Shown here: positions 16,169 to 36,912 of the stretch, one piece after another
Position numbering within the stretch: the stretch's first letter is position 1
How the letters are laid out: the number at the start of each line of letters is the position of its first letter
From: Limnohabitans sp. WS1
Lineage (GTDB): Bacteria; Pseudomonadota; Gammaproteobacteria; Burkholderiales; Burkholderiaceae_C
Assembly: GCF_003063265.1 (NCBI RefSeq)
Contig: NZ_NERU01000005.1
Location: 1-64,000 of the forward strand
Direction of reading: 5' to 3'
DNA: 64,000 bases
The notes under the pieces: model-generated
Told to the model about the DNA's origin: nothing
What the model saw: the letters and a program-made list of their open reading frames with translations, nothing else
Database searches by the model: none
Program-made: the position numbers and the translations under genes

Positions 16169-16213
16169 GACTGTCTCCTTGTGTTTTGTCTCAAATGGCT
16201 TGGCTGATCCCTG

Positions 16214-16488: not shown

Positions 16489-16514
16489 AGGCAAACATCC
16501 ATGGATCGCCTGAC

Positions 16515-17696: not shown

Positions 17697-17746
17697 CGTG
17701 TGCACCTTATGGAGATGGAGCGATGGGGGTGGTGTGCAAGACGCTC

Positions 17747-18015
17747 ATCGCGGCGGGGGCGCCGCTCCCACAGGGGAACTGCATGCTCTTTGTGGGAGCC
17801 TCACCCCCACAAGGGAACTGCTTGTGCTTTGTGGGAGTCCTACCCCAACAGGGGGACTGCATGTGCTTTGTGGGAGTTCCACCCCAAAAGGAGGGCTGCA
17901 TGTGCTTTGTGGGAGTTCTACCCCAAAAGGAGGGCTGCATGTGCTTTGTGGGAGTTCTACCCCAAAAGGAGGGCTGTACGCTCTTTGTGGGAGCCCCGCC
18001 CTCGGGGCGATGGGT
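17747..18015. repeat. REP family A with a 39-base tandem array
   Basis: A family A right arm (about 17747-17772) is followed by six head-to-tail units with an exact 39-base period starting at 17789. Each begins TTTGTGGGAG and several run on as TTCTACCCCAAAAGGAGGG. The last unit is a normal left arm, GTGGGAGCCCCGCCCTCGG. It fills 17706-18041 between two minus-strand genes. The 39-base period is a multiple of three, so a repetitive open frame runs through it; this is not taken as a gene. Confidence 0.88.
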
Positions 18016-18041
18016 GGTGAACAGCGAAATCAGCATGCGCA

Positions 18042-19202: not shown

Positions 19203-19240
19203 GGTGGTGGTGTCGGTAAAAATATTCAGTTCAAAAAACG

Positions 19241-20122
19241 TCAGGCCAGCGTGGCTTGCGCTTGCATGGTGAGCCAGCCTTCGTGGTCGCAGGCCCACAG
19301 CTCAATGGTCTTGCCATCGGCAGACGGCCGGCCATTCAGCCGGAAAGGGTGCAAGTCAAACGTGGGGCGCACGGCGCGAAACTGGAACGAGGCTACTCGC
19401 GCCTCAGGCACTTGGCGGCGCACCAGGTCCACCAACAAAGTGGCGATCAGCGGGCCGTGCACGATGAGGCCGGGGTAGCCTTCTTCTTGCGTGACGTAAC
19501 TGCGGTCGTAGTGGATGCGGTGGCCGTTGAAGGTGAGCGCCGAATAGCGAAACAGCGACACCGGGTCGGGGACAAAATCGCGTTGCCAGGGCGCGTCGGT
19601 CTCGGCTGCGGTGGGCGGCACTTCAGGTGCGCCGGGCACTGCTGCTGCGCGGTACACGATGTCGTGTGTTTCGGTCAGGCACAGACCTTGGGCGTTGCTG
19701 AAAGCGTGTTCGACCTCGACAAACAGCAGGTCGCCCGTGCGGCCTGCCTTGTGTTTGACCGAAGCGATGCGCGAATGCTTTTGTGCGGCGTCGCCCACAC
19801 GCAGCGGGTTGTTGGTGTGCCACTGCAGGCGGCCTCCGGCCCACATGCGGCGCGGCAGCGGCACGGGCGGCAAAAAGCCACCGCGCAAAGGGTGGCCGTC
19901 GGGGCCGATCTGGCTTTGTGGGGCCTGCGGCAAAAAGTACAGCCAGTGCCACAGCGGCGGTACGTCGCTGCCTGCGGCTTGGCGGGCGTCATCTCGGTCG
20001 AGCAAGGCGCTTTGGCCACGCAAGGGGGCGGCCACGATCTCGTCGGTCAGCGTTTCGCTGCGGCCTTCCCAGCTGCGCAGGTGGGCGACTTGGGTGGCGT
20101 CAAGGGTGGTGGGGGAGTTCAT
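19241..20122 (-). CDS. ich: Two-hotdog MaoC-type hydratase, probable itaconyl-CoA or mesaconyl-C4-CoA hydratase
   Basis: A 293-residue protein with two hotdog halves. The N-terminal FAS1-like half holds LWHWLYFLP and the RRMWAGGRL motif. The C-terminal half has the MaoC hydratase signature FNGHRIHYDRSYV with GLIVHGPL. Known members are 3-methylfumaryl-CoA, mesaconyl-C4-CoA and itaconyl-CoA hydratases. Given the neighbouring CoA-transferase and CitE-like lyase, hydration of itaconyl-CoA to citramalyl-CoA is the most likely role (inference). It is the first gene of this minus-strand group. Confidence 0.75.
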   Translation of the reverse strand: MNSPTTLDATQVAHLRSWEGRSETLTDEIVAAPLRGQSALLDRDDARQAAGSDVPPLWHWLYFLPQAPQSQIGPDGHPLRGGFLPPVPLPRRMWAGGRLQWHTNNPLRVGDAAQKHSRIASVKHKAGRTGDLLFVEVEHAFSNAQGLCLTETHDIVYRAAAVPGAPEVPPTAAETDAPWQRDFVPDPVSLFRYSALTFNGHRIHYDRSYVTQEEGYPGLIVHGPLIATLLVDLVRRQVPEARVASFQFRAVRPTFDLHPFRLNGRPSADGKTIELWACDHEGWLTMQAQATLA

Positions 20123-20203
20123 GGCCGTATCTTCGCCGAGTTCAATGGTGCGCTGGTCTGTCTTTATGAAAGACCATCTTTAGCGAACGTGAAGGGGGCA
20201 TTT

Positions 20204-20640
20204 CGTTGTGGGAGCCCTGCCCTCGGGGCGATTCTTGGTGGTTTGCGCGGGCCCATCGCGGCGGGGGCGCCGCTCCTACAAGGGGATGTTTCGTTGTGGG
20301 AGACGCGCCCTCGGGGCGATTCTTGGTGGTTTGCGGGGGCGCATCGCGGCGGGGGTGCCGCTCCTACAGGGGGATGTTTCGTTGTGGGAGACGCGCCCTC
20401 GGGGCGATTCTTGGTGGTTTGCGCGTGCACATCGCGGCGGGGGCGCCGCTCCTACAAGGGGATGTTTCGTTGTGGGAGCCCCGCCCTCGGGGCGATTCTT
20501 GGTGGTTTGCGCGTGCACATCGCGGCGGGGGCGCCGCTCCTACAGGGGGATGTTTCGTTGTGGGAGCCCCGCCCTCGGGGCGATTCTTGGTGGTTTGCGC
20601 GTGCACATCGCGGCGGGGGCGCCGCTCCTACAAGGGGATG
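20204..20640. repeat. REP family A, five 88-base tandem units
   Basis: Five head-to-tail units of about 88 bases. Each starts CGTTGTGGGAGCC, runs through CCTCGGGGCGATTCTTGG and TGGTTTGCGC, and ends TCGCGGCGGGGGC plus GCTCCTACA and GGGGATGTTT. Within a unit the two ends are inverted copies. The array fills the gap 20123-20666 between the hydratase gene and the acyl-CoA synthetase gene. Long open frames cross it, but they are repeat artefacts. Confidence 0.92.
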
Positions 20641-20666
20641 AAGGGGCGCGACCATGGCTCAGGGTT

Positions 20667-22190
20667 TCACGCCTGGCTGTACTGCTCCACCAGCTCACGC
20701 TTGAGCACTTTGCCGCTCAGGGTCATGGGCATCTCGGGCACTTGCACCACCATGGAGGGCCGTTTGTAGGGCGACAGGTGTTCGTGGGCGTGGGCCTTGA
20801 GGGCCTGCAGGTCCAGCTGCACACCGGGCTTGGCTTCGATGAAGGCCAGGATGTCTTCGTTGCCGTCGGCCGCTTTGCGACCTGCCACGGCGGCACGCTG
20901 CACGCCGGGCCAGGCGAGGAACACCGCCTCGACCTCGCCGGGGTACACATTGAAGCCCGAGCGGATGATCATTTCTTTCAGGCGTCCCACCACCTGCAAA
21001 GCACCATCGGCGTCTTGTCGGCCCAAGTCGCCGCTGGCGTACCAGCCGCCGGACTTGATGACCTGCGCGGTGATTTCGGGGTCGCGGAAGTAACCCGGCA
21101 TCAAGCCCACGCCACGCATCCAGATCTCGCCCGTCTCGCCTGGGGGCAGGTCGCGCCCATCGGGGCCCATGATGCGCAGCTCAGCACCTTCCACCAGGTA
21201 ACCGGCGCTGGTGTCGTCGCGCCACTCGCCCCGTCGGCACAGGGTCAATGCGCCTGCGTATTCCGACAGGCCATAACCGTGGTGCAGGGGTTTGCCAAAG
21301 CGTGCCTCAATGGCTTTTTTGACGCTCATGTCCAGCGGCGCCGCACCGGTGTAAACGTAACGCAGCTCGGGCGCTGCGGGGTGATCGATGCCCTGCGCAT
21401 CGAGCCAGGCCAGCAGGCGGGTGAACATGGCCGGCGGGCCTTGCAGCTGTGTCATGCCTTGGTGGGCCAGTGCATCGAACACATCGGCTGGGTCAAACTG
21501 GCTGCGCATGAGCAAACCGGCCCCAACGTGCAGCGAGGCCATGAGCACCGTGCCCAGACCGAAGATGTGCGTCATGGGCAGATAGGCGTACGAGCGGTCT
21601 TTAGGGGTCAGCTGGCGGGACTGCGCCGAGACCTTGGCAAACTGCAGCAGCCCCGCATGCGTGAGCATCACGCCTTTGGGCTGGCCCGTGGTGCCCGAAG
21701 TGAAAATGATGGCCGCCACGCGCTCGGCCAGTTCGCCCGTTTGCGCTGTAGCTTCAGGCGCGGCCAAGGTGCGTTGCAACGCCGGTTGCACGCTGGCACG
21801 CGTGTCGTATTGCTGCGCGTGCTGGCGCGCCGCAGCAGACACGCCCACCGTGAAATACAGCACGCGGGCATCGGCCTTGGCGGCAAAGCCCGCGAGTTCG
21901 GACGCGGTCATGCGCGCATTGACCCCACAGGCCCAAGCCCCCACACGGCTGCAGGCCAGCACCAGCGCCACATGCTCGGGGCAGTTTTCGGCGGCCACCA
22001 GCACACGGTCGCCCACACGCACACCCGCTTCGCGCAACTCGGTTTCCAGCGCATTGACCTGCTGCGCCAGCTGGCCCAGCGTCATCACCCGGTCGGGCAT
22101 GAACAAGAAAGGGTGATCGGGTGCCTGCGCGACGCGCTCGTCAAACAGGTGGTGAATGCGCGTGTGGGGTGAGGTCAATTGCACAGCCAT
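20667..22190 (-). CDS. AMP-forming acyl-CoA synthetase
   Basis: A 507-residue ANL-superfamily ligase that activates a carboxylic acid with ATP and CoA. Motifs in order: FTSGTTGQPKGVMLTH (P-loop), YGLSEYAGALT, YASGDLGRQD, GRLKEMIIRSGFNVYPGE, and SGKVLKREL with the catalytic lysine near the C-terminus. It starts three bases after the upstream Bug-protein gene, so uptake and activation genes may be cotranscribed. The ribosome site is weak. The substrate is unknown. Confidence 0.85.
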   Translation of the reverse strand: MAVQLTSPHTRIHHLFDERVAQAPDHPFLFMPDRVMTLGQLAQQVNALETELREAGVRVGDRVLVAAENCPEHVALVLACSRVGAWACGVNARMTASELAGFAAKADARVLYFTVGVSAAARQHAQQYDTRASVQPALQRTLAAPEATAQTGELAERVAAIIFTSGTTGQPKGVMLTHAGLLQFAKVSAQSRQLTPKDRSYAYLPMTHIFGLGTVLMASLHVGAGLLMRSQFDPADVFDALAHQGMTQLQGPPAMFTRLLAWLDAQGIDHPAAPELRYVYTGAAPLDMSVKKAIEARFGKPLHHGYGLSEYAGALTLCRRGEWRDDTSAGYLVEGAELRIMGPDGRDLPPGETGEIWMRGVGLMPGYFRDPEITAQVIKSGGWYASGDLGRQDADGALQVVGRLKEMIIRSGFNVYPGEVEAVFLAWPGVQRAAVAGRKAADGNEDILAFIEAKPGVQLDLQALKAHAHEHLSPYKRPSMVVQVPEMPMTLSGKVLKRELVEQYSQA

Positions 22191-22193
22191 GTT

Positions 22194-23189
22194 TTATTCG
22201 AAGGTCATGCCTTTGGTCACTTCGGCCCACAGCGCGTGTTCGCGGCGCATGCGCTCGGCCAGGTCGGCGGGTTTGGCGTTCCAGATCACATAGCCTTGGT
22301 CCACCCAGCGCTTGTTCAGCTCGGGGTCTTGCAGGGCGCGGGCCGTGGCGGCGGTGATTTTTTGGCTCACTTCTGCGCTCATGCCCAGCGGGCCATACAG
22401 GCCATACCAGCCGCCCACGTCGTAATCACGAATGCCCAACTCGGTCATGCTGGGCAGCTGCGGCAGGGCCGGGTTGCGCTCTTTGGAGGTCACCGCCAAA
22501 GGCTTGACCTTGCCGCCGTCGATGTGGGCCTTGGCCCCGCCCACGATGTCAAACATCATCTGGATCTGCCCGCCCATCACATCGGTCATGGCCGGGGCAT
22601 TGCCCTTGTAGGGCACATGGGTCATGTTGATGCCCGCACGGCGCGCAAACAGCTCGCCGCTCAGGTGGTTGGAGGCGCCCATGCCTGCTGAGCCATAAGC
22701 CAGTTTGCCCGGATTGGCTTTGCCAAAGGCCACCAACTCGGGCAAGGTTTTGAAGGGCTGGTTCTGGTTGATGACCAGCACGTTGGCATAGCTCAGGATG
22801 GTGGCCAGCGGGGTCATGTCCTTGAGTGGATCAAAGGCCATTGCTTTGAGCACATGGGGGCTGATGGTCATGGTGGGGCTGGCGGCATAGAAAATTTCCA
22901 AGCCATTGGGCGCGGACTTGACCACGCTGTTGCCGGCCACCGCACCGCCCGCACCGGGGCGGTTTTCCACGATCACGGGCTGGCCCAGTTCGCGGCTGAG
23001 CACCGGCGCGAAGACCCGCGCCGACGAATCCACGGGCCCGCCTGCGGCATAGCCCACGATGAGCTTGACGGTGTTGCTGCCTGTGGACTGGGCCCAGGCC
23101 GTGCCGCCCCCCAGGGTCAATGCCAGGCCCAGCAAGCCCAAAACGCCTCGGCGAGAAGGCCTCTTCAAAGATGAAGCTTGAATACTCAT
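22194..23189 (-). CDS. Bug/TctC-family periplasmic binding protein
   Basis: A 331-residue exported protein. The signal peptide has KRPSRRGVLGLLGLALTLG with Arg-Arg before the hydrophobic core and cleavage near TAWAQ, so Tat export is possible. The mature part has VKLIVGYAAGGPVDSSARV, VENRPGAGG and THVPYKGNAPAM, all typical of Bug proteins. These bind carboxylates for tripartite tricarboxylate transporters or for sensing. No TctA or TctB membrane gene is in the window. A ribosome site (AGGAG) precedes the ATG. A second Bug gene lies directly upstream. Confidence 0.85.
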   Translation of the reverse strand: MSIQASSLKRPSRRGVLGLLGLALTLGGGTAWAQSTGSNTVKLIVGYAAGGPVDSSARVFAPVLSRELGQPVIVENRPGAGGAVAGNSVVKSAPNGLEIFYAASPTMTISPHVLKAMAFDPLKDMTPLATILSYANVLVINQNQPFKTLPELVAFGKANPGKLAYGSAGMGASNHLSGELFARRAGINMTHVPYKGNAPAMTDVMGGQIQMMFDIVGGAKAHIDGGKVKPLAVTSKERNPALPQLPSMTELGIRDYDVGGWYGLYGPLGMSAEVSQKITAATARALQDPELNKRWVDQGYVIWNAKPADLAERMRREHALWAEVTKGMTFE

Positions 23190-23215
23190 GTCGTTCTCCT
23201 GTTGTTTGTTTCTAC

Positions 23216-24196
23216 TCAGTTCAGCGTGATCTTGGCGTCGCGGATGATGCGGGCGTACACGTCAGCATCGGACTTGACGACCTTGGCAAAGCTGTCGGTG
23301 GTTTCACCGCCGGGGATCAAGCCCATGGCTTCGATCTTCTCGCGCACATCGGGCAGCTTGAGGATGCGCTGGGTCTCGGCCGAGAACTTGTCCACCACCG
23401 GCTTGGGCGTGGCCCCTGGCAAAAACAGACCGAACCAGCCCATGGGCTCGTAAGAGTTGAGGCCTTGCTCTTTGAGCGTGGGCACATTGGGCAGCCAGGA
23501 CAGGCGCTCGGTGCCCGTCACGCCCAGCAGCTTGAACTTGGGCAAATGCTGCTTGGAAGAGCCCGCATCCATGAAGGCCGAAGACAGCTGACCGCCCATC
23601 ATGGCCGTGACCAGTGGCGCACCACCCTGGTAGGGCACATGCGTCAGGTCCAGACCCGACTGCAGATTGAGCAAAGCGCCTTGCAGGTGGGCCGAGGTGC
23701 CCGGGCCATAAGAGCCAATGCTGTGCTTGCCGGGGTTGGCCTTGACCAGGCTGGTGAACTCGGCGAGGTTGTTGATGGGCAGTGTGGGCGATGCGGCCAG
23801 CACGCTGGGGCTGATGGCCACACGGCTGATGGGCGCGAAGTCCTTGATCGGGTCATAGGGCAGCTTCATCAAGGTCATTTGCTGCACCAGGGCCACGATG
23901 CCAAACAAGACCGTGTGGCCATCGGCCGGGGCTTTGGCCACCAGGTTGTTGCCAATGGTGCCGCCTGCGCCAGGCTTGTTCTCGACCACCACGGTTTGCT
24001 GCCAGCTGTCCTGCATTTTTTGCGCGACCATGCGGGCCAGCACATCGGTGGCCCCGCCTGCGGGGTAGGGCACGATGAACTTGATCGGCTGGCTCGGGTA
24101 AGCCGTCTGGGCCTGAGCCAGGGCGCTGCCTGCGCCCATCACGGCCAAACTGCTGAGCGTGGCCAGGGCCATGCGGCGGGTGAATGTCTTTGTCAT
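23216..24196 (-). CDS. Bug/TctC-family periplasmic binding protein
   Basis: A 326-residue exported protein. The signal peptide KTFTRRMALATLSSLAVMG is followed by a cleavage site near ALAQA. The mature protein begins YPSQPIKFIVPYPAGGATDV and has VENKPGAGGTIGNN and LTHVPYQGGAPLV. It is clearly diverged from the adjacent Bug gene, so the two probably bind different acids. The ATG at 24196 follows AAGGAG. It belongs to the minus-strand acyl-CoA catabolic region. Confidence 0.85.
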   Translation of the reverse strand: MTKTFTRRMALATLSSLAVMGAGSALAQAQTAYPSQPIKFIVPYPAGGATDVLARMVAQKMQDSWQQTVVVENKPGAGGTIGNNLVAKAPADGHTVLFGIVALVQQMTLMKLPYDPIKDFAPISRVAISPSVLAASPTLPINNLAEFTSLVKANPGKHSIGSYGPGTSAHLQGALLNLQSGLDLTHVPYQGGAPLVTAMMGGQLSSAFMDAGSSKQHLPKFKLLGVTGTERLSWLPNVPTLKEQGLNSYEPMGWFGLFLPGATPKPVVDKFSAETQRILKLPDVREKIEAMGLIPGGETTDSFAKVVKSDADVYARIIRDAKITLN

Positions 24197-24289
24197 GTCT
24201 TGTCTCCTTGTGTTGTTGTCGAAAGGGTTCACGCTGACGGGGCGGGTGCTTTGGAGCGGCTTTCGCCGCAAAACGAACCCACCCTTGGC

Positions 24290-25456
24290 TCAGCCGCGTG
24301 CTTCACGCACCATGTTGCGGCCAATGATGATTTGTTGTATCTGGGTCGTACCCTCATACAGGCGAAAAAGGCGCACATCGCGGTAGAAGCGCTCGATGCC
24401 GTACTCGGACAAGTAGCCCGCGCCGCCCAAAATTTGCACCGCCCGGTCGGCCACGCGGCCACACATCTCAGACGCGAACATCTTGCAGCACGAGGCCTCG
24501 GTCGACACGCTGCGGCCTTCGTCGCGCTTGCGGGCGGCGTCGATCACCATGCACTCGGCGGCATACAGCTCGGCCTTGCTGTCGGCCAGCATGGCCTGCA
24601 CCAGCTGGAACTCGGCAATGGGCTGGCCAAACTGCTTGCGGTCGATGGCGTAGCGCAGCGCGTCATCCAAGATGCGCTGGGCCACGCCCACACACACGGC
24701 GGCCAAATGGATGCGGCCTTTTTCGAGCACCTTCATCGCAGTCTTGAAACCCTGGCCTTCTTGGCCACCAATCAGGTTGGCGGCCGGGACACGCACGTTG
24801 TCAAACATCACGTCGCAGGTGTGTGCGCCTTTTTGGCCCATCTTCTTGTCGTTCTTGCCCAGGCTGATGCCGGGCGATTGCGCGTCGACGATGAAAGCCG
24901 ACACGCCGCCCGCGCCTTTGTCGGCCGGGTTGGTGCGCGCCATGAGCGTGAAGATTTTGGAATGCGGCGCGTTGGTGATGTAGCGCTTGGTGCCGTTGAC
25001 GATGTAGTGGTCGCCCTCACTGTCCGTGCCTCGGATGGCCGTGGTGCGCAGCGATGCCGCATCTGAGCCCGCGTCGGGTTCGGTCAGCGCAAACGAGGAC
25101 GACAACTCGCCCGTGGCCAGCTTGGGCAGGTAATAGGCTTTTTGTGCTTCGGTGCCGTCCATCAGGATGCCCTGCGAGCCAATGCCCACCGTGGTGCCGA
25201 TCACCGAGCGGAATGCAGGCGAGGTCTTGCACAGCTCAAACAAGAGGCGCGCCTCTTCTTCCATGGTCAGCTCCAGGCCGCCATAGGACTCGGGGATGGT
25301 CAGGCCAAACAGGCCCATCTCGCGCATCTCTTGCACGATGGCTGGCGGGATCTCGTCGGTCTCGGCCACTTCGTTCTCGGCAGGCACCAAACGCTCGCGC
25401 ACAAAACGGCGCACGGAGTCGAGCAAGGCTTCAAAGGTTTCGGGGTCTCGGATCAT
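24290..25456 (-). CDS. Acyl-CoA dehydrogenase
   Basis: A 388-residue acyl-CoA dehydrogenase of ordinary length. It has IPESYGGL, the FAD/substrate segment LTEPDAGSDAASL, and RYITNA. The C-terminal YEGTTQIQQ places the catalytic glutamate near residue 368, as in short- and medium-chain enzymes. It lies 18 bases downstream of the DUF35-thiolase fusion gene on the same strand, so it probably acts on the same acyl chain (inference). Confidence 0.85.
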   Translation of the reverse strand: MIRDPETFEALLDSVRRFVRERLVPAENEVAETDEIPPAIVQEMREMGLFGLTIPESYGGLELTMEEEARLLFELCKTSPAFRSVIGTTVGIGSQGILMDGTEAQKAYYLPKLATGELSSSFALTEPDAGSDAASLRTTAIRGTDSEGDHYIVNGTKRYITNAPHSKIFTLMARTNPADKGAGGVSAFIVDAQSPGISLGKNDKKMGQKGAHTCDVMFDNVRVPAANLIGGQEGQGFKTAMKVLEKGRIHLAAVCVGVAQRILDDALRYAIDRKQFGQPIAEFQLVQAMLADSKAELYAAECMVIDAARKRDEGRSVSTEASCCKMFASEMCGRVADRAVQILGGAGYLSEYGIERFYRDVRLFRLYEGTTQIQQIIIGRNMVREARG

Positions 25457-25474: not shown

Positions 25475-27088
25475 TTACAAAGTCTCAAAAGTGCCGAGGA
25501 TGGCCGTGGACTGGCTCGACAGCGTGCCGCCATTGCCGTGGGCCAGCGCGGTTTGCGCACCCGCCACTTGACGCTCGCCGCCTTCGCCGCGCAACTGGCG
25601 CACGGCTTCGATCAGGGTGAAGATGCCGTACATGCCGGGGTGCGTGCACGACAGACCGCCGCCGTTGGTGTTGACCGCCAGGCGGCCACCGGGCGCGATC
25701 GCGCCACCTTCGACAAATGCGCCGCCTTCGCCTTTTTTGCAAAAGCCCAAGTCTTCCAGGAAGAGCAAGGTGTTGATGGTGAAGGCGTCGTACAGCTGCA
25801 CCACGTTCATGTCGGCGGGCGTGAGGCCCGCCATGGCAAAGGCTTCGCGCCCCGACTGGCTGGCCGATGTGACGGTGAGGTCGTGCATGGACGAGACCTG
25901 GCGGTTCCAGTTGGCGGTGGCGTTGCCCAGCACGTAAACAGGTTTCTTCGGCAGGTCACGCGCACGGTCGGCACGCACCATCACAAAGGCTCCGCCGCCG
26001 TCGGTGACCAGGCAGCAGTCGCGCACGGACAAGGGGTCGGACACCATGCGGGCCTTGAGCACCTCGTCGATCGACAGCGGATCGCGCATGAAGGCTTCGG
26101 GATTGCGCTGCGCCCAGGCGCGGGCAGCCACGGCCACTTCGGCCAGCTGGCGGCGGGTGGTGCCGTACTCGTGCATGTGCCGGCGCGTGGCCAGCGCGTA
26201 GGCGCTCAGCGGCTGCATCGGGGCGTAGGGGGTTTCGTAAGGCTGCGGGTCCATCACACGGCGGGCCTGGGCGATCTCGGCGCGGCCAAAGGTGGACGTG
26301 CGCTGCGTGCTGCCGTAGCACACCAGCACCGCGTTGCACTGGCCTGACTGCAAAGCCATCATGGCGGGCAAGAGGTGCGCCACAAAGCTGGAGCCGCCGA
26401 GCATGGTGCCGTTGATGTAGCGGGGGTTGATGCCCAAATACTCGGTCACCGGCATGGGCCACATGGTAGACAGCACACTGGCGGTGCACAGGCCATCGAT
26501 GTCGCTCATCTTCAAACCGGCATCGGCCACCGCGGCGTGTGCGGCGCGGGCCAGTACTTCCATCTCGGTAAAACCCGTGGCTTCGCCACAGCCAAAGGTG
26601 GCCACGCCCGCGATGGCAGCGCTGCCGCGCAAGGCCTTGAGGCCGGTGGACGAGTGCAACGCCGCCGATGCGGCCGGGCCACGCGGCACGGGCTTGGCCG
26701 ACGTGGCCTCTGTGCTGACCGGGTCAAACACCACCACGCCTTGGCCTTTGTCGACCTCCACACGGGCCTGCACCCGCTGGCCCACTTGCACGGCGTCGAC
26801 AGGGTCCATGTCCACGCGGCTCATCAAGCGCACGCCTTCGTCCAGATCGATCAGGCAGACGTTGTAGTCGCCACCCGCATCGGGCTTGCGGCGCACCGTG
26901 GTGACCGAATACACCGTGCCCAGCCCCGTGGGGGCCACCAGCGCCAAGTCGTTGCTGCCGCAGTGCGGGCAAACCTCACGCGGAAAGTAAATGTGCTGGC
27001 TGCAACCACCGCATTGCTGAATCAGAAACCGGCCTTCGGCCAGGGCGGCTTGGTGTTGGGCTTGCACGCCTTGTGGGTTGTCGCTCAT
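25475..27088 (-). CDS. DUF35 OB-fold and thiolase-like fusion (lipid-transfer/aldolase type)
   Basis: A 537-residue protein with two parts. Residues 1-125 are a DUF35 domain: a zinc ribbon with Cys26, Cys29, Cys40 and Cys43, then an OB fold (LGTVYSVTTVRR, VGQRVQARV). Residues 150-537 are an SCP2/Ltp-type thiolase-like domain with YDAFTI (433-438) and GGGLSCTHPG (476-485). The position of the thiolase nucleophile reads GGSSFV (231-236), with no cysteine. Ltp2-type steroid retro-aldolases also lack that cysteine and need a separate DUF35 partner, so an aldolase role is plausible (inference). The ATG follows AAGGAG; the upstream stop overlaps the ribosome site. Confidence 0.8.
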   Translation of the reverse strand: MSDNPQGVQAQHQAALAEGRFLIQQCGGCSQHIYFPREVCPHCGSNDLALVAPTGLGTVYSVTTVRRKPDAGGDYNVCLIDLDEGVRLMSRVDMDPVDAVQVGQRVQARVEVDKGQGVVVFDPVSTEATSAKPVPRGPAASAALHSSTGLKALRGSAAIAGVATFGCGEATGFTEMEVLARAAHAAVADAGLKMSDIDGLCTASVLSTMWPMPVTEYLGINPRYINGTMLGGSSFVAHLLPAMMALQSGQCNAVLVCYGSTQRTSTFGRAEIAQARRVMDPQPYETPYAPMQPLSAYALATRRHMHEYGTTRRQLAEVAVAARAWAQRNPEAFMRDPLSIDEVLKARMVSDPLSVRDCCLVTDGGGAFVMVRADRARDLPKKPVYVLGNATANWNRQVSSMHDLTVTSASQSGREAFAMAGLTPADMNVVQLYDAFTINTLLFLEDLGFCKKGEGGAFVEGGAIAPGGRLAVNTNGGGLSCTHPGMYGIFTLIEAVRQLRGEGGERQVAGAQTALAHGNGGTLSSQSTAILGTFETL

Positions 27089-27097: not shown

Positions 27098-28018
27098 TTA
27101 AATGGGGTCCCAGCTGAACACGTCGCCCGAGCGGTCCAAATCGAAGAAACTGGACTTGAGCGCGGGCATGGCCTGGTCGAGCACGCTCTGCGGCGTCCAG
27201 CCCTCGCTGCGGTGCACCGAGCGGATCGGGCGCGGCTGGCTCATCAAAAAGATTTCGTTGTTGCGCACGGCAAAGACCTGGCCGTTCACATAGGCCGAGT
27301 CGTCGCTGGCCAGGGCCACAGCCATGGGCGCAATCTTGGCGGGCGTCATCTGCTTGATGCGCTCGACGCGGGCTTGCTCTTCGGGCGTCTCGGTCGGGAT
27401 CGAGCCGATCATGCGACTCCAGGCGAAGGGTGAGATGCAGTTGGAGCGCACGTTGAACTTTTGCATGTCGAGCGCGATCGACTTGGACAGCGCCGTCACA
27501 CCCAGCTTGGCCGCCGAGTAGTTGGCCTGACCGAAGTTGCCCACCAGCCCCGAGGTGGACGTCATGTGGATGTAATTGCCGCTTTCCTGCTCCTTGAAGT
27601 GCGGAGCGGCGGCGCGGCTGACGTAGAAAGCGCCGTACAGGTGCACCTTGAGCACGGCATCCCACTCGTCCATGCTCATCTTGTGGAAGAAGCGGTCGCG
27701 CAAGATGCCTGCGTTGTTGACCACCACGTCGATGCGGCCAAAGCTGTCGATGGCCGTTTGGATGATGCGCGCCGCGCCTGCGGCGTCCGACACGCTGTCG
27801 GTGTTCGCCGCTGCCTGACCGCCCATGGCTAAGATTTCGTCCACCACTTTTTGCGCGGGGCCTGCGTCTTGGCCTTCGCCGGAGACGGACGCGCCGATGT
27901 CGTTGACCACCACCTTGGCACCTTCGCGCGCCATGGCCAGCGCGATGTCGCGGCCAATGCCGCCACCTGCGCCGGTGACCACGACGACTTTGTCTTCAAC
28001 CAATCGGGCTTTGCTCAT
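27098..28018 (-). CDS. Short-chain dehydrogenase, HSD17B4/hydroxyacyl-CoA type
   Basis: A 306-residue SDR. The cofactor loop is VTGAGGGIG (14-22), with NNAG (101-104), a serine in HMTSTSG, and catalytic Tyr167 and Lys171. The sequence style (VVNDIG, FHKMSMDEWDAVLKVHL) matches the dehydrogenase domain of peroxisomal multifunctional enzyme 2. A beta-hydroxyacyl-CoA dehydrogenase role is likely. The C-terminus extends about 40 residues past the SDR core. The ATG follows AGGAGAAAAA. It is the first gene of the SDR-fusion-dehydrogenase group. Confidence 0.82.
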   Translation of the reverse strand: MSKARLVEDKVVVVTGAGGGIGRDIALAMAREGAKVVVNDIGASVSGEGQDAGPAQKVVDEILAMGGQAAANTDSVSDAAGAARIIQTAIDSFGRIDVVVNNAGILRDRFFHKMSMDEWDAVLKVHLYGAFYVSRAAAPHFKEQESGNYIHMTSTSGLVGNFGQANYSAAKLGVTALSKSIALDMQKFNVRSNCISPFAWSRMIGSIPTETPEEQARVERIKQMTPAKIAPMAVALASDDSAYVNGQVFAVRNNEIFLMSQPRPIRSVHRSEGWTPQSVLDQAMPALKSSFFDLDRSGDVFSWDPI

Positions 28019-28176
28019 TTTTTCTCCTGTGGGTGCCGGGGTGCTGGCCATTCATGGCGTGCACACCCCATGGGGGTTGATGTATCTTGATGCGTTCAGT
28101 GATTCTGAACAATCTGCCAATGCTGAAGCGGGGGTTCAGCATTGCAAAACTCAGGGATTGCCCTTGGTTTGGGCAC

Positions 28177-28775
28177 TGCTTTTTGCAGGAACCCCGCCCC
28201 GAGGGCGATGGTCGTGGTCTGCAGGCGCTTGATCGCGGCGGGGGCGCCGCTCCTACAAAACTCCGCTTGCACAAAACGCCGTAAGCACTCGGTCTCGGCG
28301 CTGCTTTTTGTAGGAGCCCCGCCCTCGGGGCGATGGGGCGTGGTTTGCGAGCGCTTGATCGCGGCGGGGGCGCCGCTCCTACAAAACTCCGCTTGCACAA
28401 AACGCCGTAAGCATTCGGTTTCGGCGCTGCTTTTTGCAGGAGCCCCGCCCCGAGGGCGATGGTCGTGGTCTGCAGGCGCTTGATCGCGGCGGGGGCGCCG
28501 CTCCTACAAAACTCCGCTTGCACAAAACGCCGTAAGCACTCGGTTTTGTCACTGCTTTTTGCAGGAGCCCCGCCCTCGGGGCGATGGGTCGTGGTCTGCA
28601 GGCGCTTGATCGCGGCGGGGGCGTCGCTCCTACAAAACTCCGCTTGCACAAAACGCCACAAGCACTCGGTCTCGGCGCTGCTTTTTGTAGGAGCCCCGCC
28701 CTCGGGGCGATGGGGCGTGGTCTGCAGGCGCTTGATCGCGGCGGGGGCGCCGCTCCTACAAAACTCCGCTTGCAC
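28177..28775. repeat. REP family A, five units of about 124 bases
   Basis: Five units, each starting CTGCTTTTTG(C/T)AGGAGCC, then CCGCCCTCGGGGCGATGG, CTGCAGGCGCTTGATCG, a right arm ending GCTCCTACA, and a linker AAACTCCGCTTGCACAAAAC. Unit starts are near 28177, 28301, 28426, 28550 and 28678. The array lies between the SDR and crotonase genes; 28019-28176 shows no gene. Confidence 0.92.
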
Positions 28776-28781
28776 CACGCC

Positions 28782-29594
28782 TCAATCCTTGTGGGCTGGC
28801 CAGGCAAAGGCCAACGGTTGTTTGCTCAGAAACCGGTTGACGGCTTCACGGTGTTCGGCGGTGCCTGCGGCCAGCGCTTGCGCTTGGGCTTCGGCCGTCA
28901 ACATGTCTTGCAGACCCCCACCCAAAGCGCTGCCCAAGCTGCGCTTGATGAGCGACACCGCTGTGGGCGATGCACCCACAAAGCTGCGTGCCATGGCGTG
29001 TGCGCGGGCCAACAGTTGTTCGGGCGCGTGCAGCTCCATCACAATGCCCAGCCGCAAGGCTTCTTGCGCGTCGATGTCGCGGGCCGAGAGCATGATTTCT
29101 TTGGCACGCTGCACACCCACCACCCGGGGCAAGGTGTAGAGCGCACCCACATCGGGCACCAAACCGACCTTGAGGAAGGACATGTTGAACCAAGCACGAG
29201 GCGTGGCCAGCACGAAGTCGGCCGACAGCGCCAGACTGAATCCCGCACCGGCGGCCGCGCCATCGACGGCGGCAATCACCGGACGGTCGAGCGTGAGCAA
29301 AATTTGCACCCATTCGTGCAAGGTCTGCATGCGGCTGAGCCAAGCGCCGTTTTCATGCTGGACCTCGGCCATGTTTTTCAGATCACCGCCCGCACAAAAG
29401 TGCCCACCTGCGCCCGTCAGCACCACGGCCCGAATGTCTTTGTTTTGCTGAATGTGACGCAGCGCCACAACCAGACCATCGCGCATGGCCATCTCGAGTG
29501 CATTGCGCTTGGCTGGACTGTTGAAAGTGAGGGTGGCGACTTGGTCACTCACCTCAAATTGAAGTGCTGTTGATGCAAGGGTGTTGGCGGTCAT
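28782..29594 (-). CDS. Enoyl-CoA hydratase/isomerase
   Basis: A 270-residue crotonase-fold protein. It has GAGGHFCAGGDLK near 61-73 and AAVDGAAAGAGFSLALSADF near 105-124, forming the oxyanion hole, and a C-terminal SKQPLAF tail. It hydrates or isomerises an enoyl-CoA. The start at 29594 overlaps the stop of the upstream 2,4-dienoyl-CoA reductase-like gene (ATGA), so the two are translationally coupled and probably act on the same unsaturated intermediates. Confidence 0.85.
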   Translation of the reverse strand: MTANTLASTALQFEVSDQVATLTFNSPAKRNALEMAMRDGLVVALRHIQQNKDIRAVVLTGAGGHFCAGGDLKNMAEVQHENGAWLSRMQTLHEWVQILLTLDRPVIAAVDGAAAGAGFSLALSADFVLATPRAWFNMSFLKVGLVPDVGALYTLPRVVGVQRAKEIMLSARDIDAQEALRLGIVMELHAPEQLLARAHAMARSFVGASPTAVSLIKRSLGSALGGGLQDMLTAEAQAQALAAGTAEHREAVNRFLSKQPLAFAWPAHKD

Positions 29595-30620: not shown

Positions 30621-32336
30621 TCATGGGGTCGCCTGTGGAGGGGTTGCGGCCAAGCGGGCGCGTTCTTGCTCTTGCAACTGCCGCCAGAGGATCTTGCCGG
30701 TGCCCGACTTGGGCAGCACGTCCACAAAACGCACGATGCGGGGGGTTTTGTAGGCGGCCATGTGTTCACGGCTCCAGTCGATGAGGTCTTGCTCGGTGAC
30801 TTGGCCTTGGAAGGCAGGCTTGAGCACCAAGAGGGCCATCACGTTTTCGCCGCGCTTGTCGTCGGGCACAGCAATCACGCAAGCCTCGTGCACGGCCGGG
30901 TGTTCGTACAAGGTGTTTTCTACCTCAGCGGGCCAGACCTTGAAGCCCGAGACGTTGACCATGCGCTTGAGGCGGTCGCGCATGAAGAAGTAACCCTCTT
31001 CGTCCACGCTGGCCAGGTCGCCCGTGCGGAAAAACGTTTGGCCATCCAGCTCAAAAAATGAAGACTGGTTGGCCTGCTCGTTTTGCCAATAGCCGCGCAT
31101 CAGTTGCGCGCCACGCGTGACCAATTCACCCACCTCGCCGACGGGTAACTCGCGCAGGGTCTCAGGGTCCACGATGCGCGCATCCACGCCGGGCGTGATG
31201 ACGCCCAGGCACTGGCGCTTGCCGCGTGCCGGTGGGTTGCCCAGCAAAAATGAAGCGGTCTCGGTCATGCCGTAGGCTTCGTTGTAGGCGATGCCAAAAC
31301 GCGTTTGCAGCAAATTCGCCACCGTCTCGGGCATGGCGGCACCGCCGCCCGACAGGGTGGACAAGCTGCTCAGGTCGCGCTGCGCGGCGGCCGGGTTGGC
31401 AAAAAAGTCGATCAGCATGGCGGGAGGTGCAGACCAAGTCGTGACGCGGTGCTTCTCGATCAAGCGCGCCGCTGACGCTGCATGCCAGCGCGGCAGCATG
31501 ACCACGGTGGCCCCCAGCGTGATCGGCACGTTCAGGCCGCCTTGCATGCCCAGCATGTGGAACAGCGGTGCCACGGCCAGAAACACCGAGTCCATGTGCA
31601 TGCTGCGCCAGACCTGCGCAGCCATGTTGGACGCCAGCACCGTGGCGTGCGTGTGCATGCAGCCCTTGGGGTGACCGGTGGTGCCCGAGGTGTAGGGCAG
31701 CACACACAGGTCGTCGCTGTGTGGGTGCTCTGCGGGCGCGGGCAAGGCCTGTGCGATGGCGTCTTCGAGCCCATGCAGGCCCGGGGCCTCGGGCCACTGG
31801 CGCGGGGCCAACACAACTTCAGGCACCTCATCCGGCACTTCGTCACTGACGGGCTGCGCGGGCAAGCCTTCTGAATAGGCATGCACCAACACGGCTTGCA
31901 AGGCATCCGGGTTGCCAGCTTGCAGCAACGGCATGACCTGCGGCAACAACTCTTGCGCCACCATGGCCACGCGTGCGCCGCTGTCTTGCAGGTAGTAGCG
32001 GATTTCGCTCTGCGTGCACATGGCGTTGACCGGCACCACCACGGCCCCGGCGCGCATGATGCCGTAGTAGGCCGCCACGTATTGCGGGGAGTTCTGGCTC
32101 ATCAACAAGACCCGATCGCCGCGCTGCACACCCAGGCGCTGCACAAGGTAACCGGCCAGCGCCTCCACACGCGTGAGCAGCGTCGCGTAGCTCAGCGTGC
32201 TGCCGCAAAAGATCACGGCGGGCTTGTTCGGAAAGCGCTCGGCCGCGACCTGAACGTAATGCGTGAGCGGTACCTGCGGCAGGTTCAGCGTGCGCGGAAC
32301 GCCTTTGGGCCAATAAGGCAGCGACGATGTGGACAT
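30621..32336 (-). CDS. AMP-forming acyl-CoA synthetase
   Basis: A 571-residue ANL ligase. Motifs are YTSGTTGHPKGCMHTH, YGMTETASFLLGNPP, FFRTGDLASVDEEGYFF, RLKRMVNVSGFKVWPAEVE, and SGTGKILWRQL with the C-terminal catalytic lysine. It is of the medium/long-chain type and could activate a fatty, isoprenoid or cyclic acid; the sequence does not settle which. The ATG at 32336 follows AAAGAG. A GTG at 32372, nine bases past the dehydrogenase stop, would add twelve residues. Confidence 0.83.
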   Translation of the reverse strand: MSTSSLPYWPKGVPRTLNLPQVPLTHYVQVAAERFPNKPAVIFCGSTLSYATLLTRVEALAGYLVQRLGVQRGDRVLLMSQNSPQYVAAYYGIMRAGAVVVPVNAMCTQSEIRYYLQDSGARVAMVAQELLPQVMPLLQAGNPDALQAVLVHAYSEGLPAQPVSDEVPDEVPEVVLAPRQWPEAPGLHGLEDAIAQALPAPAEHPHSDDLCVLPYTSGTTGHPKGCMHTHATVLASNMAAQVWRSMHMDSVFLAVAPLFHMLGMQGGLNVPITLGATVVMLPRWHAASAARLIEKHRVTTWSAPPAMLIDFFANPAAAQRDLSSLSTLSGGGAAMPETVANLLQTRFGIAYNEAYGMTETASFLLGNPPARGKRQCLGVITPGVDARIVDPETLRELPVGEVGELVTRGAQLMRGYWQNEQANQSSFFELDGQTFFRTGDLASVDEEGYFFMRDRLKRMVNVSGFKVWPAEVENTLYEHPAVHEACVIAVPDDKRGENVMALLVLKPAFQGQVTEQDLIDWSREHMAAYKTPRIVRFVDVLPKSGTGKILWRQLQEQERARLAATPPQATP

Positions 32337-32381: not shown

Positions 32382-33533
32382 TCACAAACTGCGCGAGATC
32401 AACTCTTTCATGACCTCGCTGGTGCCGCCATAGATGCGGGTCACACGCGAGTCCACAAAGGCGCGGGTGATGGGGTACTCCATCATGTAGCCGTAGCCGC
32501 CGTACAGCTGGAGCAACTCGTCGAGCGCCTTGCCCAGCTCTTCGGTGGCAAACAGTTTGGCCATGGCGCCTTCTTGCACGGTGAGCTTGCGGCGCAGGTG
32601 CTCGGCGAGGTACTGGTCCACCATCATGCGCACGGCGGTGGTGCGGACTTTGATTTCGGCCAGTTTGAAGCGGGTGTTCTGAAAGTCAAACAGCGGCTTG
32701 CCAAAAACCACGCGCTCTTTGGTGTAGCGCACGGTCTCGTCAAACATCGCTTCCATCTTGGCGGCGGCACCCAGCGCGATCACAAAACGTTCTTGCGCCA
32801 GCTCTTGCATGAGGTAGGCAAAGCCCTTGTTCTCTTCGCCCAGGATGTTGGTCACGGGCACGCGCACGTCTTCAAAAAACAGCTCGGCGGTGTCGGCCGC
32901 TTCCTGGCCCATTTTGTCGAGCTTGCGGCCTTTGCGAAAACCGGCGCGGTCGGCCTCGACCAAAATCAACGACACGCCTTTGGCACCCAGCTCGGGCTCG
33001 GTCTTGGCCACCACCACGACCAGGTCGCAGTTCAGGCCGTTCGAGATGAAGGTCTTGGCGCCGTTGATGACGTACTCATCGCCCTCGCGGCGCGCCGTGG
33101 TGCGGATGGCTTTGAGGTCGCTGCCCGCGCCGGGCTCGCTCATGGCAATGGCCAGGATCACCTCGCCCATAGCACATTGGGGGAGCCACTGGGCTTTTTG
33201 TTCTGGCGTTCCCAAGCGCTCGATGTAAGGTGCCACCACGTCCGAGTGCAGCCCAAAGCCCAAGCCGCTCACACCCGAGCGGCCAATCTCTTCGACGATC
33301 ACGGCCGCGTGGCCGAAGTCGCCGCCGCCACCGCCCCATTCAGGGTCCATGGTGGCGCAGAGCAAACCTTCGCGCCCGGCCTTGAGCCAGGTTTCGCGGT
33401 CCACCTTGCCGTCTTTGTCCCACTGGGCTTGGCGGGGTTTGCATTCGCGCTCCAGAAAGCGGCGCACGGTGGTGCGCAGCATTTCGTGATCTTCACGGAA
33501 CACGCTGCGGGGGAAAGTCAGGATGCTGTCCAT
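32382..33533 (-). CDS. Acyl-CoA dehydrogenase, long-chain type
   Basis: A 383-residue acyl-CoA dehydrogenase. It has SEPGAGSDLKAI (132-143), TFISNG (161-166) and DKMGQEAADTAELFF (206-220). The C-terminal motif is YGGTSEVM, without the usual glutamate; the likely base is Glu249 in QERF, as in long-chain and isovaleryl enzymes. It lies between an acyl-CoA synthetase and an SDR on the same strand (gaps of 45 and 7 bases), which fits a beta-oxidation operon. Confidence 0.84.
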   Translation of the reverse strand: MDSILTFPRSVFREDHEMLRTTVRRFLERECKPRQAQWDKDGKVDRETWLKAGREGLLCATMDPEWGGGGGDFGHAAVIVEEIGRSGVSGLGFGLHSDVVAPYIERLGTPEQKAQWLPQCAMGEVILAIAMSEPGAGSDLKAIRTTARREGDEYVINGAKTFISNGLNCDLVVVVAKTEPELGAKGVSLILVEADRAGFRKGRKLDKMGQEAADTAELFFEDVRVPVTNILGEENKGFAYLMQELAQERFVIALGAAAKMEAMFDETVRYTKERVVFGKPLFDFQNTRFKLAEIKVRTTAVRMMVDQYLAEHLRRKLTVQEGAMAKLFATEELGKALDELLQLYGGYGYMMEYPITRAFVDSRVTRIYGGTSEVMKELISRSL

Positions 33534-34648: not shown

Positions 34649-35068
34649 TCAGGCCAGCGCCACCACGGCGTCGCCTGCCAGCTTGACCTGGCCTTCGGCG
34701 TTGGCGGTGGTGAGCGACAGGCGCACACGGCGCTCGCCATCGACTTCAAACTTTTCGGTCACCTGGCCTGTGCAGGTGATTTTTTCGCCCACCTGCGTCA
34801 TCGCGGCAAAGCGCACGCTGTAGTCGCGAATGGCCGTTTGCGGCACCCAGTTGGTGAGCAGGCGGGCCAGCCAGCCCATGGACAACATGCCGTGGGCGAT
34901 CACATCGGGCAGGCCCGCGATGTGCGCGAAATCGGTGTCGACGTGGATCGGGTTGTGGTCGCCCGAAGCGCCACAGTACAGCGCCAACGTTAGGCGCGAA
35001 ACGGGTGGCAACTCCAGCGCAGGAATGGCGTCGCCCACTTGCAGGGCATCAAAAGAGGGGAGTGTCAT
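34649..35068 (-). CDS. MaoC-like hydratase subunit
   Basis: A 139-residue single hotdog domain with the R-hydratase signature YCGASGDHNPIHVD followed by GLPDVIAHGML; the conserved Asp and His are the expected catalytic pair. It starts 10 bases after the FAS1-like hotdog gene. Adjacent pairs like this usually form one heteromeric enoyl-CoA hydratase, as in steroid side-chain degradation. The ATG at 35068 follows AAGGAAA. Good confidence in family, low in substrate. Confidence 0.84.
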   Translation of the reverse strand: MTLPSFDALQVGDAIPALELPPVSRLTLALYCGASGDHNPIHVDTDFAHIAGLPDVIAHGMLSMGWLARLLTNWVPQTAIRDYSVRFAAMTQVGEKITCTGQVTEKFEVDGERRVRLSLTTANAEGQVKLAGDAVVALA

Positions 35069-35078
35069 GGGGGTTTCC

Positions 35079-35531
35079 TTATGCACTGACGCCGTGGCGC
35101 AAAACGGTCACGGCGCGCAGGTCGGCCACATGCTCGCCACGCTGGTTGCTGACGCGGGTTTTGCGCACGACGAATTCGAGTGCGCCACCCTTTTTGTCGT
35201 AGATGTCTTCGATGCGCTGTTCAAAACGCAGCACATCGCCCGCATAGGCCATGCGGTGAAAAGTGAAGCCCTGCTCGCCGTGCAGCAGCTTGCGGTAGTC
35301 CATGCCCAGCAGGTTGCGGATCGCGGCCGGGTCGGGCGACTCCATCTCCAGGCAAAACAAAAACGTGGGCGGCACGGGCAAGGCCGGGTGCCCGGCAGCG
35401 CGGGCAGCTTCTTCGTCGGTGTAGACCGGGTCGGTCTGGCCCGTGGCCTTGGCGAAGAATTTCAGGCGGCCCTTTTCCACCAGCACCTCGAAGGCGGGCA
35501 TGGTGTGGCCGATGTATTGGCGGTCGATCAT
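35079..35531 (-). CDS. FAS1-like (MaoC N-terminal type) dehydratase subunit
   Basis: A 150-residue single hotdog protein. It has KFFAKATGQTDPVYTDEEAA near 24-43, PVPPTFLFCLEM and GEQGFTFHRMAYAGDVL. It resembles the N-terminal half of two-hotdog hydratases and lacks the full catalytic motif, so it likely pairs with the MaoC subunit encoded just downstream. Both are between the SDR and the SCP-x thiolase genes. Confidence 0.82.
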   Translation of the reverse strand: MIDRQYIGHTMPAFEVLVEKGRLKFFAKATGQTDPVYTDEEAARAAGHPALPVPPTFLFCLEMESPDPAAIRNLLGMDYRKLLHGEQGFTFHRMAYAGDVLRFEQRIEDIYDKKGGALEFVVRKTRVSNQRGEHVADLRAVTVLRHGVSA

Positions 35532-35589: not shown

Positions 35590-36783
35590 TCACACCTTTT
35601 GGTACAGCGTGACCACACAAGCACCGCCCAAGCCCAGGTTGTGCTGCAGCGCCAAACGTGCGCCTTCGACCTGGCGCTGGTCGGCTGTGCCGCGCAGCTG
35701 CGAGACCAGCTCGTAACACTGCGCCAGCCCGGTGGCCCCCAGCGGGTGGCCCTTGGACAGCAGACCGCCAGAGGGGTTGGTGACGATGCGCCCGCCGTAA
35801 GTGTTGTCGCCGTCCACGATGAACTTTTCGGCGGTGCCTTCGGGCGTGAGGCCCAGGCCTTCGTAGGTGATGAGTTCATTGGCCGTGAAGCAGTCGTGCA
35901 GCTCCACCACGTCCAGGTCTTCGGGGCCGATGCCAGCGGCTTCGTAGACCTGTTTGGCCGCGTTGGCCGTCATGTCGTAGCCCACCACGCGGCGCATGTC
36001 ATCGCTCTCGAAGGTGCTGGGGGTGTCGGTGGTCATGGCCTGTGCGGCAATCACCACACTGGCGTCCAGCTTGTGCTTTTTGGCAAAGTCGGCCGAGCAG
36101 ACGATGGCGGCCGCCGCGCCGCAGGTGGGCGGACAGCACTGGTAGCGCGTGAGCGGACCAAACACGGTGGGCGAAGCCATCACCTCTTCGAGCGAGAGCG
36201 TCTGGCGAAACACGGCCAGCGGGTTGCGCGCCGCGTGCTGGCGCGCCTTGACCGAGATGCGGCCAAAGGTGTCGGCGCGGATGCCGTGCTCCTTCATGTA
36301 GTCCAGGCCTGCGCCCCCAAAGAACTGCGCGGCACGCGGGGCAGACTCATCAAAACCTTGGTGCGCGGTCATGGCCTCGACAAAGCGGACCATGGGCGCG
36401 GGGCGGTCTTGGTACGCCCCTTTCAGCGGGCCGGGCACCATCTGCTCAAAACCGAGCGCAATGGCGCATTCGACCATGCCACTCTCCACAGCTTGGCGCG
36501 CCAGGTACAGCGCACTCGACCCGGTGGAACAGTTGTTGTTGATATTAAAAACCGGGATGCCGGTCAGGCCCACGCCGTAAATGGCCGCCTGCCCGGCGGT
36601 GGAATCGCCATAAACATAGCCCACATAAGCCTGCTGCACGGCGTCGTAGGGCACGCCCGCGTCGTCAAGCGCCAGCTGAGCCGCCCGCGCACCCATGAGG
36701 TGGTAGGACTCGCTGGCCCCGGGTTTGGTGAAGGGGATCATGCCCACGCCGACGACGTGAACTGCGCGCTTGCTAACGGCCAT
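35590..36783 (-). CDS. SCP-x/lipid-transfer type thiolase
   Basis: A 397-residue thiolase of the sterol carrier protein x type. Nucleophile Cys85 sits in NNNCSTGSSAL. It has HDCFTANEL, the GGLLSKGHPLGATG loop with His346, and a second cysteine near 389 in GLGGACVV, so all catalytic residues are present. It would cleave branched or bulky beta-ketoacyl-CoA. It contrasts with the DUF35-fused relative at 25475-27088, which lacks the nucleophile. The ATG follows AAGGAGCAGGC. It is the first gene of this minus-strand group. Confidence 0.85.
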   Translation of the reverse strand: MAVSKRAVHVVGVGMIPFTKPGASESYHLMGARAAQLALDDAGVPYDAVQQAYVGYVYGDSTAGQAAIYGVGLTGIPVFNINNNCSTGSSALYLARQAVESGMVECAIALGFEQMVPGPLKGAYQDRPAPMVRFVEAMTAHQGFDESAPRAAQFFGGAGLDYMKEHGIRADTFGRISVKARQHAARNPLAVFRQTLSLEEVMASPTVFGPLTRYQCCPPTCGAAAAIVCSADFAKKHKLDASVVIAAQAMTTDTPSTFESDDMRRVVGYDMTANAAKQVYEAAGIGPEDLDVVELHDCFTANELITYEGLGLTPEGTAEKFIVDGDNTYGGRIVTNPSGGLLSKGHPLGATGLAQCYELVSQLRGTADQRQVEGARLALQHNLGLGGACVVTLYQKV

Positions 36784-36912
36784 GCCTGCTCCTTGAAAAG
36801 GTCGATACGGACAAAGTATCGAGCGCCAAGGAGGCTTTACCAATCGCCAATCAGGTCAAGATGATTGGCAGGAAGTGACATTTTTGATGATCACACAGCC
36901 TGAATTAATGTC

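Follow-up and report, generated by a model that had tools for sequence, protein, structure and literature searches.

Two acyl-CoA aldolases that combine a thiolase fold with a DUF35 protein are the closest characterised counterparts of the protein described here. TcLtp2-ChsH2 (6OK1) is a steroid C3 side-chain aldolase made of two proteins, in which Gly takes the place of the thiolase nucleophile, the Tyr of a YDxF motif is the base, and the DUF35 domain, with a C4 zinc ribbon, is carried on a MaoC hydratase. CtSal-CtShy (9MYR) is a proteobacterial bile-acid C5 side-chain aldolase, again made of two proteins, with the same Tyr base in YDxF and a Cys3His zinc site. According to the available part of PMC12329534, Gly89 of CtSal occupies the place of the nucleophilic Cys of SCP2-thiolases, and the C304A variant had no detectable activity. 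The same partial text also describes BbsAB (7PXP) as a thiolase with a DUF35 subunit, named benzoylsuccinyl-CoA thiolase by its depositors. In the ibuprofen pathway of plasmid pIBU218, IpfD and IpfE are held to remove the acyl-CoA group from dihydroxylated ibuprofen-CoA, and an ipfD insertion mutant is Ibu-minus, a genetic result that may include a polar effect of the insertion (available parts of PMC6063337 and PMC9195938). Judging from the position of the ring hydroxyl, this removal would be a retro-aldol step. DUF35 homologues fused to members of the thiolase superfamily were reported in 2010 in the SSO2064 paper, which, in the part available, proposes acyl-CoA binding and no aldolase function for DUF35 (PMC2954200). 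Both DUF35-thiolase fusions and proteobacterial two-protein aldolases are already known. A sequence-only reading of our locus had presented the aldolase pair as a system of actinobacteria. Proteobacterial forms also exist, namely Sal-Shy and Ltp2-ChsH2 of Comamonas testosteroni (PMC12329534, PMC11321319, PMC12502768, each available in part).

We analysed a window of 64,000 nucleotides from Limnohabitans sp. WS1, a bacterium of freshwater type. A single frame on its minus strand, uninterrupted from ATG to stop, encodes a DUF35 region followed by a thiolase-fold domain (Table 1). Both DUF35 Pfam domains are above their gathering scores (PF12172, 46.6 against 23.2 bits; PF01796, 50.9 against 27.1 bits), Thiolase_C_1 matches residues 390-533 (Pfam, E 5e-69), and residues 151-537 score 679.9 bits against NCBIfam PRK06158, for which the curated cut-off is 421. 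The sequence-only reading had placed a DUF35 domain and a nucleophile-less thiolase in one chain between an acyl-CoA dehydrogenase and an SDR. The exact single ORF and the Pfam and PRK06158 matches bear this out, and both flanking genes lie on the strand of the fusion. A chance frame is ruled out by the family scores and by 19 fused loci elsewhere. Neither chance nor an assembly slip would account for the chain, because 19 of the 80 nearest loci of other records (the best 80 among 544 confirmed, from one-per-species genomes) have it too, as does another genome of its genus, with 93% identity over residues 1-537.

Table 1. Coordinates in the window of the fused protein, its domains and proposed active-site places, and the neighbouring genes.
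Feature	Position	Strand	Basis or remark
Fused DUF35-thiolase-like protein (P0001)	25475..27088	-	537 aa; ORF, Pfam and NCBIfam matches
zf-ChsH2 zinc ribbon, residues 14-47	26948..27049	-	Pfam, E 3e-12; Cys26/29/40/43, C-x2-C-x10-C-x2-C
OB_ChsH2_C OB-fold, residues 54-110	26759..26929	-	Pfam, E 1.5e-13
Low-confidence linker, residues 127-146	26651..26710	-	pLDDT <50 in the model
Thiolase-fold domain, residues 151-537	25478..26638	-	NCBIfam PRK06158 and predicted fold
Gly232, place of the thiolase nucleophile Cys	26393..26395	-	HMMER alignments; 107/107 relatives
Tyr433 of YDAF, place of catalytic base Tyr294 (TcLtp2) / Tyr302 (CtSal)	25790..25792	-	HMMER alignments; 107/107
His483, place of catalytic acid Tyr344 (TcLtp2) / Gln352 (CtSal)	25640..25642	-	HMMER alignments; 107/107
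ACAD1, acyl-CoA dehydrogenase	24290..25456	-	Family match
SDR1	27098..28051	-	Nearest solved structure (3R)-hydroxyacyl-CoA dehydrogenase 2et6, then HSD17B4
Enoyl-CoA hydratase/isomerase family protein	28782..29561	-	Longest ORF extends to 29912
AMP-forming acyl-CoA ligase 1, PRK08314	30621..32372	-	Family scan on 30621-32330
ACAD2, acyl-CoA dehydrogenase	32382..33533	-	Family match
MaoC_B, MaoC_dehydratas/HadB-like	34649..35086	-	Family match
MaoC_A, FAS1_DH/HadA-like	35079..35531	-	Weak matches to ChsH1/ChsH2
SCP2-type thiolase PRK08256, intact Cys and HDCF	35590..36843	-	Same cluster; family match
AMP-forming acyl-CoA ligase 2	20667..22190	-	Family match

The place of the catalytic Cys is taken by the motif GGSSFV (residues 231-236). 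In HMMER alignments counted residue by residue, Gly232 stands opposite the Cys of NNNCST in zebrafish SCP2-thiolase (6hsj_A) and opposite Gly89 of CtSal (9myr_A), and the SCP2-type thiolase signature NNNC[SA] is absent. In a MAFFT alignment of all rows the SCP2 Cys is shifted by a few columns, beside a gap, and there too the window protein has no Cys. The sequence-only reading had named a Cys at the nucleophile place as the observation that would speak against it; sequence alignment found none. Conservation was followed in 159 distinct thiolase-like rows from the loci, after dropping rows below 75 bits, shorter than 330 residues or identical. By score to the thiolase part of the window protein, 107 rows reach at least 360 bits (one being the window's own copy), 15 fall between 200 and 360, and 37 score less. 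Position 232 is Gly in all 107 relatives and in 15 of 15 sister rows; since the 107 were picked by similarity (most at 74% identity or more, down to about 52%), part of this agreement, and of that at the active-site places below, is kinship. Any Cys within residues 224-242 is confined to three of the 107 (loci L019 and L111 at 225 and 226, L115 at 233). Three other cysteines were rejected as substitute nucleophiles: Cys359 is invariant, but the same Cys pair is present in zebrafish SCP2-thiolase; Cys450 is Val in 3 of the 107 relatives; and Cys481 is Trp or Phe in 7. A sister group (L116-L122) carries a Cys one residue past the nucleophile place (GGCSF), together with YDAFA, and its chemistry may differ.

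The remaining active-site places were counted by hand off the HMMER alignments, with the numbering of PMC12329534. Tyr433, Asp434, Ala435, Phe436 and His483 are each found in 107 of the 107 relatives, and the sister rows keep Tyr433 (15/15) and His483 (14/15), while the Ala435 place holds Ala in seven, Ser in seven and Cys in one. The motif YDAF thus contrasts with the HDCF of SCP2-type thiolases. Compared with CtSal, the fusion has counterparts of Gly89, Tyr302 and the oxyanion Gly391 in Gly232, Tyr433 and Gly521, but oxyanion Gln161 is replaced by Pro293, the essential Cys304 by Ala435 and Gln352 by His483. As the C304A variant of CtSal shows no detectable activity and the window protein has Ala at that place, a simple transfer of function is disfavoured. 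Likeness to Ltp2, also put forward by the sequence-only reading, holds for the Gly at the nucleophile place, the Tyr base and the Cys spacing of the C4 ribbon; it does not extend to the rest of the active site, which in TcLtp2 is YDHF with acid Tyr344 (His296 aligning with Ala435) and here YDAF with His483. Because the known acids are replaced, at the Tyr344 place of Ltp2 and at the Cys place of Sal, the fusion is neither an Ltp2 nor a Sal, and may instead be a third type. True SCP2-thiolases have a His at the place of His483 as well, within their GHP motif, and keeping this residue therefore does not mark out an aldolase.

IpfD is informative in this respect. Its Cys-less thiolase domain, 37% identical to that of the window, reads YDAF like the fusion and is followed by an adjoining DUF35-type gene; YDAF therefore seems compatible with aldolase-type chemistry. 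It differs in having Tyr at the His483 (Ltp2-344) place, and IpfE, a separate gene, lacks the zinc Cys, whereas the fused DUF35 keeps all four, as do 76 of the 77 aligned DUF35 domains. We assigned IpfD by gene order beside the gene matched by the published ipfE primers: the order on pIBU218 (dioxygenase alpha, beta, Cys-less thiolase, DUF35-type, ligase) fits ipfABDEF, the ipfE primers match the DUF35-type gene, and the ipfA primers match the start of the dioxygenase alpha gene. The same plasmid carries a second set of Cys-less thiolase, DUF35, enoyl-CoA hydratase and CaiB genes (L139:939-4557), whose thiolase part is above the PRK07855 cut-off and groups with TcLtp2 in our tree. DUF35 domains that have lost the zinc Cys were seen at L072, L023 and IpfE (L139:13229-13627).

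Both sequence scores and the predicted-fold ranking put the Ltp2/Sal aldolases closest among characterised proteins, in support of the sequence-only reading. In HMMER searches the nearest PDB sequences are 4u4e_A (362 bits), CtSal (201) and TcLtp2 (186), and the best named true thiolase is BbsB at 134 bits. An AlphaFold2 model built on an alignment of 32 sequences (mean pLDDT 86.3, pTM 0.73) has as its first four Foldseek rows in the PDB 4u4e, CtSal (9myr_A) and two TcLtp2 chains (6ok1_A and 6ok1_C), followed by an archaeal thiolase and TbSLP. The closest solved structure, 4U4E from Sphaerobacter thermophilus, is deposited as a 'putative thiolase'; it shares GGSSF and THPGMYG with the fusion and differs in reading YDSF where the fusion reads YDAF. 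A search for '4u4e' found no paper among the matches listed from the open-licence literature. The PRK06158 model spans the thiolase part alone, not DUF35, and its name, 'acetyl-CoA acetyltransferase', points to thiolase activity, for which the residues give no support; the label is probably wrong. Its cut-off was passed in 26 of 150 family genomes, own genome included. In a phylum draw of 299 genomes, 103 had some thiolase-like match and, among the matches listed, 13 (own included) had one of at least 52% identity over the thiolase part.

A search for the same fusion in other genomes, proposed with the sequence-only reading, shows that the single chain is real and not the rule. Most of the nearest relatives are two adjacent genes, and such fusions were in print in 2010 (PMC2954200, available in part). 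The best 80 of 544 loci divide into 19 with a fused chain, 58 with separate frames and 3 that are incomplete, so that a DUF35 partner is fused or adjacent in 77. In all 58 split loci the DUF35 frame precedes the thiolase frame as its neighbour on one strand, with at most 88 bases between the aligned parts. A family search of 150 genomes, with our own locus left out, gave 19 loci, 17 split and 2 fused, one of the latter in the window's genus. The fused state requires three changes on a tree built from 133 thiolase parts, and well-supported branches force three; the tree was made by a quick method with SH-aLRT values only and has long branches (SCP2-thiolase, IpfD, L132), so the order of its deep branches is unsure. 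The fused lineages are a Limnohabitans-Simplicispira-Curvibacter group that includes the window, Polaromonas jejuensis (L045) and L020. As the last two, one genome each, both sit among split rows, three separate gains are the natural reading, although the count alone is no proof. The spacing seen in three annotated plasmids (gaps of 3 or 15 bases, or an overlap of 4) is such that a single small indel could fuse the two genes. On this sequence evidence we consider the single chain a derived, late form, in a few Comamonadaceae, of a common two-gene enzyme. Two Comamonadaceae-like copies, at L031 and L066 (93% and 78% identity), lie in metagenome bins named Akkermansia and Hymenobacter and are probably misplaced contigs.

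The genes around the fusion recur with it in part. Flanks were counted at 54 of the best 80 of 544 loci (43 split, 11 fused), with at least 9.9 kb on each side, a homologue being a same-strand protein of at least 50% identity. Homologues were found of ACAD1 in 38 loci, SDR1 in 37, ACAD2 and ligase 1 in 31 each, MaoC_A and MaoC_B in 30 each, the SCP2-type thiolase in 29, the enoyl-CoA hydratase in 28 and SDR3 in 26; about half of the 54 loci thus carry the larger cluster. SDR1 lies directly upstream in 31 loci and ACAD1 directly downstream in 33, with both in place in 24 and neither in 14. In Roseovarius indicus and Comamonas antarctica the DUF35/thiolase pair is beside MaoC or enoyl-CoA hydratase genes, and in Variovorax paradoxus VAI-C it has an SDR on one side and a ligase on the other, while the annotation of the 19.7 kb covered shows no hydratase. 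We take 2et6, the nearest structure to SDR1, to be a fungal MFE-2; by analogy, SDR1, the SCP2-type thiolase and the MaoC pair resemble a bacterial version of the peroxisomal branched-chain route. This conserved catabolic cluster of Burkholderiales and Alcanivorax probably does not serve steroids. Following the fusion, 14804-24271 holds two Bug-type (tripartite tricarboxylate) binding proteins, a CaiB-type CoA-transferase, a second MaoC-type protein and an MmgE/PrpD-like protein; the Bug-type and PrpD labels come from reading the sequence, and PrpD gave no family match.

We consider it reasonably probable, from the residues and the predicted model, that the fusion belongs with the DUF35-dependent acyl-CoA retro-aldolases such as Ltp2 and Sal, forming its own branch (PRK06158) with DUF35 fused at the N-terminus. 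In such a pathway a ligase would make the acyl-CoA and ACAD1 would put in the 2,3-double bond; after hydration by one of the cluster's hydratases, the fusion would cleave the C-alpha/C-beta bond of the 3-hydroxyacyl-CoA to give a ketone or aldehyde plus acetyl- or propionyl-CoA. The beta-hydroxyl, bound to the backbone NH of Gly232, would give up its proton to Tyr433; a backbone NH of glycines 520-521 would hold the enolate, and His483, standing at the place of the Ltp2 acid, would protonate C-alpha. The zinc-ribbon/OB domain would pack on the thiolase domain like the separate DUF35 subunits in 9MYR and 6OK1, and would bound the substrate cleft. It is tempting, if more speculative, to propose a third catalytic type among the DUF35-thiolase-fold aldolases, one that relies on a Tyr/His pair and has turned the former thiolase His into its general acid. 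It would act last in an undescribed acyl-CoA breakdown pathway, widespread among planktonic and soil Burkholderiales and Alcanivorax, and would apparently have been joined to DUF35 three separate times.

The neighbouring SDR1 counts against an aldolase. The reaction expected of it, oxidation of a secondary 3-hydroxyacyl-CoA, fits a beta-ketothiolase route that the cluster's own SCP2-type thiolase could finish. The fusion might then break or form a C-C bond in a 3-ketoacyl-CoA without a covalent Cys intermediate, for instance with activated water (as a beta-ketoacyl-CoA hydrolase) or in another Claisen-type reaction. SDR1, directly upstream in 31 of the 54 loci, would supply the 3-keto compound, and the thiolase His is kept as His483. 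The base place, however, holds an invariant Tyr, shared with Ltp2, Sal and IpfD, in contrast to the His of HDCF in SCP2-thiolases. In addition, 29 of the 54 loci (of the best 80 of 544) have the cluster's ordinary SCP2-type thiolase no more than about 10 kb from the pair. We regard this reading as unlikely. The fusion might instead work in reverse and condense by an aldol-type reaction, as thiolase-fold enzymes often run in both directions, or it might decarboxylate a malonyl-type CoA ester. TbSLP, which has the catalytic residues of CtSal, decarboxylates malonyl-CoA very slowly, but CtSal itself does not (PMC12329534, in the part available). The neighbourhood, with its ligases, dehydrogenases and hydratases, reads as one of breakdown, and synthesis or decarboxylation is improbable.

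Loss of the nucleophile could also mean a catalytically dead thiolase domain kept as a scaffold or carrier, like PhlA, the inactive thiolase-superfamily partner described in the available part of PMC2954200. Yet the whole acid/base set is invariant in 107 of 107 relatives, and a search restricted to homologues of the cluster's SCP2-type thiolase found none within about 10 kb in 25 of the 54 loci (of the best 80 of 544). The DUF35/thiolase pair is therefore often not an accessory of that thiolase, and we hold a dead domain to be very improbable. Least probable of all is a role in a steroid or bile-acid side-chain pathway like those of Ltp2 and Sal, to which family resemblance and the weak match of MaoC_A to ChsH1/ChsH2 would point. 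Sal and Ltp2 fall in other branches of the tree. With a KstD-like query from a Sal-bearing genome, the highest score in the window's genome (99.99% complete) was 34.8 bits; this query is a single ring gene and itself scores 518.7 bits to PRK12844, under the cut-off of 789. Queries with the window protein and IpfD found no second Cys-less relative in the own genome, the only matches being the fusion and two SCP2-type thiolases (NNCST, HDCF). The protein encoded here is real and well conserved, and its most likely function is that of a retro-aldolase whose acid/base set is its own.

Among the matches listed from the open-licence literature we found no paper on the PRK06158-type branch or on a single-chain DUF35-aldolase; in that literature we likewise found no published activity for any member of the branch and no paper joining DUF35, Variovorax and acyl-CoA. 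In the parts available, no such gene is named in the pristane proteome of Alcanivorax borkumensis (PMC6850023), in the thiodipropionate proteome of Variovorax (PMC6370202) or in a deoxyribonate fitness paper (PMC6365646). If the fusion is a retro-aldolase, it marks a non-steroid route for acyl-CoAs whose hydroxyl cannot undergo further oxidation. Moreover, a single-chain enzyme may be easier to handle than the two-protein aldolases; the CtSal-DUF35 complex loses activity upon dilution (PMC12329534, available in part). That the two parts seem to have fused repeatedly is independent evidence for DUF35 and the thiolase domain acting as a unit. Database labels such as 'acetyl-CoA acetyltransferase' or 'thiolase' for this branch are probably wrong and, across many genomes, mislead the reconstruction of pathways.

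No tRNA was found when the window was scanned for them. Outside the listed genes, the window contains tandem arrays of GC-rich units of 39-126 nt, which we take to be REP-like, at 1227-1560, 16208-16457, 17770-17994, 20201-20640, 28166-28793 and 40498-40988; those at 17.8, 20.2 and 28.2 kb have a 40 nt core in common.
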